DNA from: Thermoanaerobaculum sp.
GTDB taxonomy: Bacteria > Acidobacteriota > Thermoanaerobaculia > Multivoradales > UBA5704
Direction: 5' to 3'
NCBI GenBank assembly: GCA_021154885.1
Contig: JAJKHS010000159.1
Location: forward strand, 1 to 64,000
Length of the DNA: 64,000 bases
Positions 12,151-64,000 of this stretch are shown here, piece by piece (within the stretch, counting starts at the first letter, position 1; the number at the start of each line of letters is the position of its first letter). The notes beneath the pieces were generated by a model. It was not told the DNA's origin. It made no database searches and saw only the letters and a list, made by a program, of their open reading frames with translations. A program made the position numbers and the translations under genes.

Positions 12151-12231
12151 ATAGGTCGGCCCGAATTCTGGTAACCCCTGAGAGGCGGGAAGCCAGCTCC
12201 GCCCACCGTCAAGGCTCTCGCTTCATAGGAC

Positions 12232-12378
12232 ATGCCCAGTCTTAAATCGGGCATGCCCGATGCTCCATCTGCCATGCCCGATGGTCCGCCTGCCAGGTCC
12301 GGTATTCCACCTGTCACGGCATGCCGGCCGCCTGCCGCGTCCGGCACGACGTTGGACACATCCGGCAAGACACAAGAC
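12232..12378. repeat. Degenerate 21-bp tandem array A (7 units)
   Basis: Units begin at 12232, 12253, 12274, 12295, 12316, 12337 and 12358, all exactly 21 bp apart. The first three begin ATGCCC; the shared core drifts toward TCCGG in later units, and many units end GCC or GAC. The array fills the gap between the truncated propeller gene and the methylase gene. The minus-strand frame is open through it and gives short Gly/Pro/Asp-rich heptads, but no start or signal supports a protein. Confidence 0.75.
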
Positions 12379-12424
12379 CTCTTCGACTCTTGATACAGAG
12401 GGGCGCGCAACTCCGGCGCCGGGT

Positions 12425-16481: not shown

Positions 16482-16614
16482 GCCGGGCGACGCGCAGCCC
16501 TAGCCCAACTTCGGCGGTTTTTCTGAGGAATCCTCGGGATTTTGGCGGAGGTTTTCGTCACTATCCCTGGGGGTCCCCCTTGCCGCGCTCGAGTCGCGTG
16601 GCGGCGGTCCCGCG

Positions 16615-16887
16615 AGTCAGGTCCTCTGCAACTCGGATGAGATCTCTCAATCCGCGGATGAGATGACCTGCAATTCGGATGAGGACCCTCAATCCGCGGA
16701 TGAGGTCACTTGAAACCCGGATGAGGTGATCCGCAACCCGGATGAGATGACCTGCAATTCGGATGAGGTCCTCTGCAACTCGAATGAGATCCCTCACTCC
16801 GCGGATGAGATCGCCTGGAGCTCGAATGAGGTCATCCGCAACTCGGATGAGGTCATCGGAAACCCGAATGAGATGACTACCGACGAG
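16615..16887. repeat. Strict 21-bp tandem array B (13 units, GATGAG core)
   Basis: Twelve cores at 16636, 16657, 16678, 16699, 16720, 16741, 16762, 16783, 16804, 16825, 16846 and 16867 are spaced exactly 21 bp. Each is GATGAG or AATGAG, and a degenerate first unit starts at 16615. The remaining 15 bp vary, although two units (16657 and 16741) are identical, as are the variable parts at 16621 and 16768. Most units end in CG. The array fills most of the 430-bp gap from 16482 to 16911 and ends 24 bp before the acetamidase start. The minus-strand frame is open through all units and encodes a seven-residue repeat (R-x-x-x-D-L-I); the plus-strand frame contains a TGA. Confidence 0.9.
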
Positions 16888-60503: not shown

Positions 60504-61708
60504 TGTCGAAGGTCATGTCGCAGCCGGGGTCCTCGAAGCTGGCGGAGAACGTCGTCCACTTCACCCGCCTCCTGCGCGGCGCGGGCCTGCGGCTCGGGCC
60601 GGCGAGCGCTCTCGACGCTCTCGCCGCCGCGTCCGCCGTGGACGTGATCCAGCGCGACGAGCTGTACTGGGCGCTCCATGCCGTCCTGGTCAAGCGGCCA
60701 GAGGATTTCGAGCTTTTCGATCAGGCTTTCCGCCTCTTCTGGCGTGACCCCATGGGCGCCGACTCGGCGCTGGCGCAGCTCCTGCCGCACGTGCGCATGC
60801 CGCGGGCGCAGACGGTTTCGCGGCGGGTCGCCGAAGCGTGGCGCCCGCCGTCGTCCACGGGGAAGCCGCTTCCCGAGCGCACCGAATTCGACGCCGCGCT
60901 CACCTTCTCCGCCGACGAGCTCCTGCGCACCCGCGACTTCGACCAGATGAGCGCCGGCGAACTCGCCCGCGCCAAGAAGATCGTCGCCCGCATGGCGGCG
61001 GCGCTGCGGCCCGTCCGCACGCGGCGGTTCGCCCCCGATCCCCACGGCGCGAGCATCGATCTCGCCCGCACGGTGCGCGAAAGCCGCAAGACCTTCGGCG
61101 ACCTGGCGCCGCTGCGCTTCCGCTCGCGCGTCTCCCTGCCGCCGCCGCTCGTCGTCCTGTGCGACATCTCGGGGTCGATGGGCCGCTACTCGGAGATGAT
61201 GCTTCACTTCCTGCACGCCCTGCTCGACGCCCGCGACGTCCGCAGCCCCGTCCACGCCTTCCTGCTCGCCACCCGGCTGACCAACGTGACGCGCATCCTC
61301 CTGCGCCGCGACCCGGACGAGGCGCTCGCGCGCTGCGGCCGGGAGGTCCAGGACTGGCAGGGAGGAACGCGCCTGCGCACCTGCCTGCATCAGTTCAACC
61401 GGGAGTGGTCGCGGCGCGTTCTCGGCCACGGCGCCGTGGTGCTGCTGGTCACCGATGGTCTCGACCGCGACCCCGAGCCGGGCCTCGCCGCCGAGGCGGA
61501 GCGTCTCCACAAGTCCTGCCGCCGGCTGATCTGGCTCAATCCGCTCCTGCGCTGGGAGGGGTTCGAGCCGAGGGCGCAGGGGATCCGCGCGCTCCTTCCC
61601 CACGTCGACGAGCACCGGCCGGTGCACAACCTGGACAGCCTGGAGGCGCTGGGGCGGGCGCTGGGGGAGCGGGCAATTGCGTGGCGAGAGGGGACGGTGT
61701 CTCGCTGA
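60503..61708 (+). CDS. coxE: VWA-domain protein (CoxE-like)
   Basis: A 401-residue protein. The von Willebrand A domain begins near residue 210 with the MIDAS sequence VVLCDISGSMGRYSEMML, continues with the Thr (GGTRLRTCL) and ends with LLVTDGLDR; these residues bind Mg. The N-terminal 190 residues are helical (CoxE family). MoxR and VWA proteins act as pairs, and both genes sit directly after the enzyme genes. No coxF/xdhC follows. A 50-bp piece of this gene (61511-61560) is repeated at 62305-62354. Confidence 0.9.
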
Positions 61709-61760
61709 GCGTGTCCGAATGAGGCGAGGGCAAGCGAGGCGCTGTGCTAAGATCGAGGCG

Positions 61761-62045
61761 GTGAGAGTCGACGAAGTCATCTGGCTTAGGCAGGTCGTCG
61801 ACAAGTTGGCCGACAAACATGGTGTCGAGACATTTGAGGCCGAAGAAGCACTGAACAACAAACCAAAGATACGACTTGTCGAGAAGGGAAAGCGCAAGGG
61901 AGAGGATGTCTATATCGCTTTGGGCCAGACAGATGCGGGACGATATCTCGCAATCCTGTTCATAGACAAAGGGAATCGAGAAGTCTTACCTCTAAGTGCT
62001 CGGGACATGGCCGATAAGGAGCGAAGAAGATATGGCCGCAAATAG
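61761..62045 (+). CDS. BrnT-like toxin candidate
   Basis: A 94-residue basic protein from GTG 61761. VDEVIWLRQVVDKLADKHGV at the N-terminus and VLPLSARDMADKERRRYGRK at the end match the BrnT/DUF4258-like type of RelE-fold RNases. The centre (GEDVYIALGQTDAGRYLAIL) forms predicted strands. It overlaps the next gene by 14 bp, with toxin first and antitoxin second, as in brnTA. GC is lower than in the cox operon, consistent with acquisition. Confidence 0.75.
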   Translation: MRVDEVIWLRQVVDKLADKHGVETFEAEEALNNKPKIRLVEKGKRKGEDVYIALGQTDAGRYLAILFIDKGNREVLPLSARDMADKERRRYGRK

Positions 62046-62295
62046 AAAGGACTTCCTGTCACGAACGGATTCGCTCGACGAGCTCGTGAATTTTTTCGAC
62101 ACGCACGACATGGGAGAATATTGGGATCAGATGCCGGAAGCGGAGCTCGAAATCGATATACGCCGGCGTAAGCACTTGGTCGCTCTCGATGACGATCTCG
62201 CCGGTAAGGTTGCGACGATTGCCCGCTCGCGGCATGTGTCCTCGGAGTCTCTGATCAACTCCCTCCTACGGGAAAAGCTGGCCGATGCGATCTAA
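62032..62295 (+). CDS. CopG/BrnA-like antitoxin
   Basis: An 87-residue protein beginning inside the toxin gene. The family-typical N-terminal part is DELVNFFDTHDMGEYWDQMP, followed by a ribbon-helix-helix segment (EIDIRRRKHLVALDDDLAGK, then IARSRHVSSESLINSLLREKL). It would bind DNA as a dimer, repress the pair and neutralise the toxin. GAAG at 62025 may be its ribosome-binding site. Confidence 0.78.
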   Translation: MAANRKDFLSRTDSLDELVNFFDTHDMGEYWDQMPEAELEIDIRRRKHLVALDDDLAGKVATIARSRHVSSESLINSLLREKLADAI

Positions 62296-62304
62296 TCGCG
62301 AGTC

Positions 62305-62354
62305 AAGTCCTGCCGCCGGCTGATCTGGCTCAATCCGCTCCTGCGCGGGGAGGG
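62305..62354 (+). repeat. Direct repeat of a coxE internal segment
   Basis: These 50 bp match 61511-61560 inside coxE at 49 positions, in the same orientation. The toxin-antitoxin pair and the coxE tail lie between the two copies, which are 794 bp apart. The copy here encodes nothing and immediately precedes the TGCGG array. Confidence 0.85.
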
Positions 62355-62439
62355 GGATCGGGCGAATCTCCGTTGACGTCCTCGACGGACAGCTCCACGC
62401 TCCTGGACTTCCTGTGAAGCCACGGGATCCAGGCCCAAG

Positions 62440-63150
62440 CCGCCAGATATTGCGGCGTCGCCCATGACTCTGCGGCAGCTCCAGCAAAGTTGCGGTAAAG
62501 GTAGAAGACGACGGTATGGCGCGACGGACCGTGCCGCAACTTGCCCCCGACACATTTTGGAGGAGTTGACGTTGCAGCGGAGTCTGTAGACTCCAGACCG
62601 GCGGCGCTCAAGAATGCCGCGGTGTCGAGCCGGCCGGGGCGGATCTCCAGAAATTTTGCGGCATTTGTTATGAATCGTACCGCAGCGTCGTATAGAACTG
62701 CGGTGGAGAAATCTGCGTCGCGGTGGATGTCGATAAACGCGGATACGGTTCGGCGGCGTTGCGGCGATGTTTGGAGAGGTTGCGGTGTGTATCCCGGAGT
62801 GGCGGCGAAATCGTCTTGCGTCGCGGCAACGTTCCCTTGCGATGCAGCGAAGCCGCAGAATATGCGGCAATGTTTGTCTGTGCTGCGATAAAATCCGGCA
62901 CGCTCTTTGGGTGTTGGAGCGCACTCTGGGATCTCTGGCAAGTGTTGCGGTAAATTTCGAGGAGTCGCCGGAACATAATTCTATTCTGCGGTGGGGTCGG
63001 TAGACGCACTGCAACGCCTGAAGACGTTGCGGCGTGTCTGTAGGCCCTGCGGTGTGTCTGGGAGCGTTGCGGCGGATGCGGAGAGGTTGCGGCGAAGTCT
63101 TTCGGCTTCGAACCGCGTCGGGCCAAGTTGCGGCGATGTCAGGCGAGTTA
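62440..63150. repeat. Long degenerate 20-21-bp array C (about 34 units, TGCGG core)
   Basis: This fills most of the 870-bp gene-free gap between the antitoxin and the barrel protein. Cores reading TGCGG, CGCGG, GGCGG or TGCAG recur at 62451, 62471, 62491, 62638, 62657, 62699, 62719, 62738, 62760, 62781, 62801, 62822, 62843, 62863, 62884, 62946, 62987, 63028, 63048, 63068, 63088 and 63129. The steps are mostly 20 or 21 bp, with single missing beats giving 41 or 62. The remaining bases of each unit differ. Because the step mixes 20 and 21, no reading frame is kept, so a protein product is unlikely. Confidence 0.8.
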
Positions 63151-63167
63151 AGTCTTGTCAATGCGCC

Positions 63168-64000
63168 TCACGGCACCCAGGCGTACCCCAGCTTCAGGAA
63201 GAAGGTCCGGTCGGTCCGCGTCAGGTCGATCCGCTGGTCGGCGGCGGAGGTGTCGGAGTAGCCGAGGAAGAGGACGGTCTGCGGGTTCAGCTTGTAGGAG
63301 AAGAGGAGCTGGCCGAACAGCGCCGCCGTTTTCTTGTCGACCGCGGCGAGGTAGAGGGCCGGGTTGCGCTGGACGTCGGTGTACTGGAGGATGGCGCGCA
63401 GGAAGGTGCGCACGTTGAGCTGATAAACCGTGGAGAGCTGCGTCAGGTTCGCCGTGAAGAGCTCGCCGCCCCGGACGTCGAGCCGCTGGTAGACGTGGGA
63501 GAGCTGAGTCCGCAGATGGCGGCCCAGGTCGTACCGCACGGTCGGAGAGATCTGCACGAGGTCCCCCGCGCGGGTGTTGACGAAGTCGATCTCGCCGCCG
63601 TAATTCAGGGAGAGGCTCAGGAAGAGGTCCCCGCTCGGCTGCATCTCGGAGTAGAGGGAGGAGAACGTATCCCGGAACGTCGCGCCGTTGAAGAACCGAT
63701 CGCGCCGGGCCACGTTCAGCGACGTGAACGACTGCCGGGGTCCGTTGCAGTCGGCGGTGACCTCCACCAGTTGCTCGAGGCGCTGGCCGCGCTGGTCCTC
63801 CCGGCGGTCCCAGTCGCTGCTGAGGCTGGCGCGGGTGAAGCCTCGCCAGTTGCCGTTCCAGACGTGCCCGCCCCCCGCGAGCAGGAAGTTGTAGTCGACC
63901 CGCGGCAGGAAGCCCATGTCGGCGCGAAAGCCCCGGCCCACGTTCTCGTAGCGGCCGAAGGCGAACCAGTCGCGGGAGTCGTGGTTGTAGGCGATCTGGT
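63168..64000 (-). CDS. C-terminus of an outer-membrane beta-barrel protein (DUF5916-like)
   Basis: The frame is open to the right edge, so the N-terminal part lies beyond the window. The visible 277 residues are alternating amphipathic strands (SLYSEMQPSGDLFLSLSLNY, LVQISPTVRYDLGRHLRTQL, KTAALFGQLLFSYKLNPQTV) and end YAWVP. NPQTVLFLGYSD and DRTFFLKLGYAW are typical of DUF5916 barrels, which usually carry an N-terminal family 9 carbohydrate-binding-like domain. It would be located in the outer membrane; its function is unknown. The stop is about 20 bp from the end of array C. Confidence 0.8.
   Translation of the reverse strand, partial: QIAYNHDSRDWFAFGRYENVGRGFRADMGFLPRVDYNFLLAGGGHVWNGNWRGFTRASLSSDWDRREDQRGQRLEQLVEVTADCNGPRQSFTSLNVARRDRFFNGATFRDTFSSLYSEMQPSGDLFLSLSLNYGGEIDFVNTRAGDLVQISPTVRYDLGRHLRTQLSHVYQRLDVRGGELFTANLTQLSTVYQLNVRTFLRAILQYTDVQRNPALYLAAVDKKTAALFGQLLFSYKLNPQTVLFLGYSDTSAADQRIDLTRTDRTFFLKLGYAWVP

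Follow-up and report, generated by a model that had tools for sequence, protein, structure and literature searches.

The window considered in this study is a stretch of 64,000 nucleotides from a contig of Thermoanaerobaculum sp., and its features are shown in Table 1 together with related arrays from elsewhere. Toward the right end of the window lies a gap free of genes, bounded on one side by the genes of a BrnT-type RNase toxin and a CopG-type antitoxin and on the other by the 3' part of a large gene with homologues in Acidobacteriota and other groups. The Pfam match of the toxin was made on the open reading frame 61677-62045, and the start given in the table comes from a gene call based on codon usage. 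Between the toxin-antitoxin pair and the array that occupies the gap sits a duplicate of a small piece of a CoxE-like gene, the source of which lies upstream of the pair. Since the piece is duplicated across the pair, the locus appears to have been rearranged or inserted into. I will treat the pair as a neighbour of the array and at most a putative member of the array system.

Table 1 Features of the window and related arrays. Positions refer to the window unless another contig or locus is named.
Feature	Position	Strand	Remarks
Weaker third candidate array	12187..12395		10 units of 21 bp, between two genes
Second array	16608..16879	+	13 units of exactly 21 bp, core CGGATGAGGT; same general class
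BrnT-type RNase toxin gene	61761..62045	+	Pfam PF04365, E 3.5e-10; start by codon-usage call
CopG-type antitoxin gene	62032..62295	+	Pfam PF12441, E 2.1e-6; 150 bp from array
Gene-free gap holding the array	62296..63167		872 bp, from stop of the CopG-type antitoxin (62295) to next gene (63168)
52-bp piece	62304..62355	+	98% identical to 61510-61561 inside the CoxE-like VWA gene
TGCGG ladder (window array)	62450..63147	+	About 34 units, steps mostly 20 or 21 bp, mean 20.5 bp (spacing-constrained parse)
Large gene, 3' part	63168..63998	-	No Pfam match; convergent, ends 20 bp from array
Ladder with the same core, contig C48	6045-6812		37 units
Ladder with the same core, contig C107	72855-73155		15 units of exactly 20 bp
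AT-rich array of genome G147	L234 5-213 (contig C424)		21 bp, GATTAAAACGTTTAAATGGAC-like; directly before family-B homologue

The preliminary description, made from the letters of the sequence, had set aside a coding explanation for the repeat, and rightly so: a coding repeat could not mix steps of 20 and 21 bp, and no gene call based on codon usage falls within the gap. A reading frame of 289 amino acids on the minus strand was considered and rejected, as it matches no Pfam family and has no support from codon usage.

The same description proposed a ladder of about 34 TGCGG units with a beat of 20-21 bp, and the beat is real, far exceeding shuffled controls. Autocorrelation and TGCGG counts in the segment 62431-63160 were compared with those in 500 dinucleotide shuffles. 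The autocorrelation stands out at lags of 41 bp (z 5.8), 61 bp (z 3.8) and 20 bp (z 3.5), and the exact word TGCGG occurs 16 times, as compared to a mean of 2.5 and a maximum of 8 in the shuffled sequences. The periodic-chain score of the array is 204, while 40 dinucleotide-shuffled copies score 56 +/- 10, with a maximum of 76. The number of units holds if they are counted as positions on a grid and not if they are counted as exact words: TGCGG is found at 16 of the 34 positions, and the remainder carry a degenerate core or a reversed core (CCGCA, the core on the other strand). The mean step is near two helical turns, as had been noted, at a measured value of 20.5 rather than 20.3 bp.

The preferred unit is approximately TTGCGGCGnnGTC plus 8-9 loose bases. 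Conservation is focused in the former part and is uneven over the columns (chi2 68, 19 d.f., p 2e-7), in keeping with the initial picture of a tiny conserved core and a looser remainder. An alignment by MAFFT of overlapping four-unit windows was excluded from the unit model, since the windows were aligned by their overlap and not by unit. Where cores are missing, the beat is indeed kept, with intervals between cores of 41, 42, 61, 82 and 83 bp. The suggested constraint on phase, however, is not borne out by the window array taken alone: the order of its steps is no more regular than that of shuffled steps (p 0.2-0.6), and active control of phase in this array was rejected on that ground. Step order in other arrays looks regular, with a median p of 0.03, a value to be read with the knowledge that misplacement of a single unit in the parse can mimic regularity.

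A BLAST search found no DNA-level copy of the whole window array in the rest of the genome or in 58 related genomes. Two ladders that have the same core but no similarity to it at the DNA level, on contigs C48 and C107, were found by searching for spaced triplets of the core and by scanning with a profile. Another candidate from the search for core trimers, on contig C142, turned out to be merely a short cluster of four cores.

The genome was also scanned without reference to any motif, for any period from 9 to 36 bp, with a correction for codon periodicity. About 39 of the 51 periodic regions found in this way share a period of 20-21 bp, despite their unrelated cores, examples of which are GGGAAAnnTTTCCC, GTCTnnAGAC, GGAnCGnTCC and CGGATGAGGT. 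A dyad within the unit stands out from column-shuffled controls in about half of the arrays. In 0.816 Mb of this genome, from contigs picked regardless of arrays, there are 22 arrays of about 20-21 bp, and as a few of them overlap gene calls, the total for the genome may be put at roughly 150-220. The same scan found no such arrays in codon-shuffled DNA. Arrays of that period were equally lacking in three sets of other DNA: 0.16 Mb picked at random from G003, which belongs to the same family, 0.226 Mb representing other families of the order, and 0.545 Mb of loci belonging to other lineages. In loci L126 (10933-11442) and L089 (9301-9803) the repetition is of a higher order, with blocks of four units (about 82 bp) and of five units (105 bp), so arrays also grow by block duplication. 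Stretches related to the second array of the window, with core CGGATGAGGT, are present in about 13 places in the genome (including L011-L021). Two long regions with a period of about 33 bp (L073, 14221-19920, and L090, 7141-7920) are unlike the 20-21-bp class and are possibly coding repeats.

The window array is thus a member of a genome-wide class, a fact missed by the preliminary description, and that class is tied to genes for small proteins. Paralogous small proteins beside arrays were first seen on inspection of flanking genes. Whole genomes were next searched with the protein sequences of each family, independently of arrays, and the matches were afterwards checked for 20-21-bp periodicity. 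Family B (with a query of 145 amino acids) has 23 matches in this genome. Three other members of the same bacterial family yield 10, 17 and 13 matches, and 55 other genomes of the order yield none. Family A (about 165 amino acids) has 19 matches, in the same four genomes. An array lies directly upstream of 14 of the 15 full genes of family A, no more than 60 bp from the start codon in 12 of them, and downstream of none. In family B, the array lies 34-181 bp downstream of 19 of the 36 parsed genes. Five more distant family-B genes have an array 227-304 bp upstream, and about one third of the genes of this family, mostly the more distant ones, have no array. In family C (about 145 amino acids), the array is downstream in 10 of 14 cases and overlaps the end of the gene in two. 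Calculated at the background density of arrays and without the two loci that seeded each family, the probability of such linkage by chance is 1.7e-17 for family A, 6e-17 for family B and 8e-12 for family C.

The gene-linked arrays have 5-60 units and mean steps of 19.8-21.1 bp, so that a period of about two helical turns holds in a wider sense than first claimed: it applies to dozens of arrays, here and in related genomes, whose cores are unrelated. In all three families the divergence of the gene goes with that of the array, as a Mantel test of protein identity against array profile shows (r 0.45 for A, 0.58 for B and 0.63 for C; p 4e-4 for A and 2e-4 for both B and C). Co-divergence alone is no proof of recognition. 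Mere inheritance of gene and array as one unit would produce it too. Most arrays in the genome, the window array among them, have no adjoining gene of family A, B or C, and none of the CGGATGAGGT stretches was found beside such a gene.

A distant case of linkage comes from G147, an AT-rich genome from another class of Acidobacteriota, in which a weak, single-copy homologue of family B is preceded by an array of at least 10 units of 21 bp, ending 15 bp before the start codon. A sample of 107 kb from this genome holds no other array, and the homologue is absent from three other genomes of the same family that were searched. The case could represent vertical descent, transfer or an error of binning. 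It repeats the linkage of gene and array in DNA of quite different composition.

None of the three protein families matches a Pfam family above cut-off, and the search of NCBIfam with family B returned nothing that looked meaningful. The AlphaFold2 model of family A (mean pLDDT 82) consists of a helix of 60 residues (7-66) joined by a loose linker to a winged helix at the C-terminus, and its fold matches are moderate, mostly to winged-helix regulators (best Foldseek E-value 8e-3). The C-terminal domains of families A and C are related according to hhalign (E 1.2e-4, probability 54%), and that of family C has a weak profile similarity, below the Pfam cut-off, to the winged helices of Fur-type proteins and of the replication terminator protein (RTP). 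I know of no long tandem arrays of sites for either of these. The assignment as winged helices is weak by sequence and moderate by fold. The predicted fold of family B is a helical hairpin to which a short third helix is added, its tail is basic and proline-rich, and neither a fold match nor a recognisable DNA-binding domain was found for it. Five family-A proteins carry the motif ASDVLRR in the predicted recognition helix, and all five have a core of the CCGCA/TGCGG type in their array consensus, though the five constitute a single group of close relatives.

The window array has the attributes of the arrays of family A, namely a period of 20-21 bp and a profile of the TTGCGG type. When its profile was compared with those of 52 gene-linked arrays, the 13 best matches all belonged to family A (Mann-Whitney p 6e-8), and the closest was that on C48 (0.86). 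A search by tblastn of the 85.6-kb contig with all proteins of families A, B and C gave only noise (best E 0.015). The window array is therefore considered an orphan, having a family-A profile but no gene of the three families on its contig. Other orphans were assigned by profile in the same manner: L098 to L160, L101 to L140, L126 to L132, and L123 to L165. It is quite likely that the window array belongs to the class described here, more so than that any particular mechanism is correct.

In order to account for the ladder, I suggest that it is probably an orphan tandem platform, to be bound by family-A proteins encoded elsewhere, and that the system as a whole operates by protein on DNA. Each unit of about 20.5 bp would be the site for a protein dimer, as the dyads in about half of the arrays suggest, and the two-turn spacing would put successive dimers on one face of the DNA, where the long N-terminal helix may join neighbouring dimers into a filament or cluster. 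The DNA binding and the function of these proteins are predictions. For the gene-linked arrays of family A, autoregulation is suggested by the abutment of the array on the start codon, and the bound protein may repress its own gene. The orphan in the window would be bound in trans by a family-A protein, the closest genes being those on C48 and C107 of the same genome, and in its bound state it might silence, insulate or anchor the local DNA. The effect of the bound array is the least certain part of the proposal, and any specific output is less probable than the binding itself. Simple autorepression cannot explain families B and C, because the side of the array differs between families, and their downstream arrays would need some other role, perhaps insulating, terminating or anchoring.

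More tentatively, and with rather less confidence than in the binding platform, the arrays may represent an undescribed class, in which several families of small proteins have many paralogues per genome, each with a co-diverging two-turn ladder of 10-60 sites. The proteins would act in cis at their genes and also in trans, on orphan ladders scattered along the chromosome (about 150-220 arrays). The result would be a multi-channel coating of DNA for silencing, insulation or chromosome organisation. Neither such arrays nor such proteins were described in the open-access full texts searched, which is weak evidence of novelty.

As far as the features examined go, the window array matches none of the repeat classes tested, and the earlier statement that its structure is unlike that of CRISPR, REP or VNTR sequences is upheld. 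REPs are dispersed palindromes of 20-40 bp with GTAG/CGTC tags, associated with a Y1 transposase, RAYT (PMC3733652). The arrays are similar to REP/BIME sequences with RAYT in that a repeat lies beside a dedicated gene and many intergenic orphans are present. It is conceivable, if unlikely, that the resemblance goes deeper, and that the module of gene and array and its orphans are selfish or drifting repeats that spread or persist with no function for the cell, the window array being a decaying relic. The expansion is restricted to one lineage, with as many as 23 copies of family B in a genome, numerous orphans and degenerate units; the blocks of four and five units amount to local block duplication; and orphans are often found near toxin-antitoxin genes. 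The arrays are nonetheless direct tandem ladders of fixed two-turn period, not dispersed palindromes, and have no tag, while the linked proteins have no nuclease or transposase domain above noise and no homologues in 72,556 plasmids or in viral contigs. Furthermore, core columns are conserved across arrays whose remainder has lost BLAST similarity, a pattern that pure decay would not yield.

A function at the level of RNA is more doubtful still. The array would in this case be transcribed, and the linked coiled-coil protein would bind the resulting chain, made up of small hairpins or of small RNAs. The window array folds better than shuffled sequences (z -3.8 for the plus strand and -2.5 for the minus strand), many units contain dyads, and family B has both a basic tail and a downstream array that could be a 3' UTR. 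The excess folding on both strands, however, comes from dyads and reversed cores and is equally expected of sites on DNA; the proteins of families A and C resemble winged-helix DNA binders; and a period of two helical turns is meaningless for single-stranded RNA. A search of Rfam gave no family, and a promoter-like site was looked for and not found. CRISPR and TIGR systems share with the present one an intergenic array with a linked protein gene. CRISPR arrays consist of near-identical repeats of about 23-47 bp and unique spacers of similar length, accompanied by cas genes, whereas here it is the degenerate 20-21-bp unit itself that repeats, with no identical repeats or unique spacers, and no Cas family was found above noise for the linked proteins. 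TIGR-Tas arrays have alternating edge and loop repeats with short spacers and a gene for a Nop-domain Tas protein nearby. The window array has one core per 20.5 bp and is parsed without an alternating second motif, and the search of its neighbours against Pfam gave BrnT, the CopG antitoxin, a VWA protein and one protein without a match.

It is very improbable that the ladder is a site of partition or replication, that is, a centromere or origin bound by an adaptor resembling ParR or Rep, even though parC sites and iterons are arrays of direct repeats of 10-22 bp, and the combination of linked gene and cognate array shares its logic with the Rep-iteron and ParR-parC pairs. The parC-ParR systems (ParMRC) include the 20-bp repeats of pSK41 and the variants of Clostridium perfringens, and are linked to a cytomotive ParM, ParA or TubZ. 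The likeness consists of tandem repeats, a small DNA-binding adaptor (predicted here) and cognate paralogous variants, variant ParR proteins binding only their cognate parC arrays (PMC9426499). ParR, however, is a ribbon-helix-helix protein, as compared to the predicted winged helix or helical hairpin here, and the arrays here are numerous and chromosomal. The iterons bound by winged-helix Rep proteins (R6K, pPS10, RK2, P1) are tandem direct repeats of 17-22 bp, and binding is cooperative and abolished by displacement of half a turn (PMC4980987). The arrays at hand share with them direct repeats in tandem and a nearby gene for a winged-helix protein (predicted here) and, of the helical phasing on which cooperativity depends, the two-turn spacing itself. 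The iteron origins named in that paper have 2-7 copies and a Rep gene, in contrast to 10-60 degenerate units at many loci per genome, and the proteins linked to the latter contain at most one predicted winged helix and do not match Rep initiators. Dozens of arrays per genome with differing cores, on long contigs amid ordinary chromosomal genes, also argue against such a site, as does the lack of plasmid homologues of the linked proteins. By inspection, the flanks of about 35 arrays, taken as two genes to either side, showed no ParM, ParA or Rep gene.

Minisatellites (VNTRs) are head-to-tail copies with high mutual identity. Tandem Repeats Finder (TRF) sees just 2.7 copies in the window array (63020-63074), conservation sits in the core, and some sister arrays (such as L126 and L089) do contain block duplications. 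Local duplications and degenerate units notwithstanding, the idea that about 20 bp were neutrally duplicated in tandem and then decayed, with an incidental period, is the least credible of the explanations and scarcely to be entertained, given the one period common to about 39 of 51 regions with unrelated cores, the fixed side of the array in three gene families and the uneven conservation of columns.

If the mechanism preferred here, a ladder of DNA sites occupied by protein dimers, is true, then one genome would possess dozens of parallel protein-DNA ladder systems distinct from one another, in each of which a DNA-binding protein is naturally paired with its cognate site. They would offer a ready-made set of orthogonal binding pairs and would constitute a new way of building long nucleoprotein assemblies on a bacterial chromosome. 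Now that gene, cognate array and orphan arrays have been identified together, the reason for the two-turn period shared by so many intergenic arrays would become directly testable.

An enrichment of toxin-antitoxin genes near arrays was not demonstrable from the 59 PIN-domain genes of the genome. Such genes (PIN/VapC, VapBC, HicAB, MazF, BrnT) lie within a gene or two of many arrays, among them those of L089, L112, L130, L103, L114, L086 and L126, as well as the window array with its pair at 61761-62295. Their nearness could reflect either a common residence in accessory regions or a functional link.
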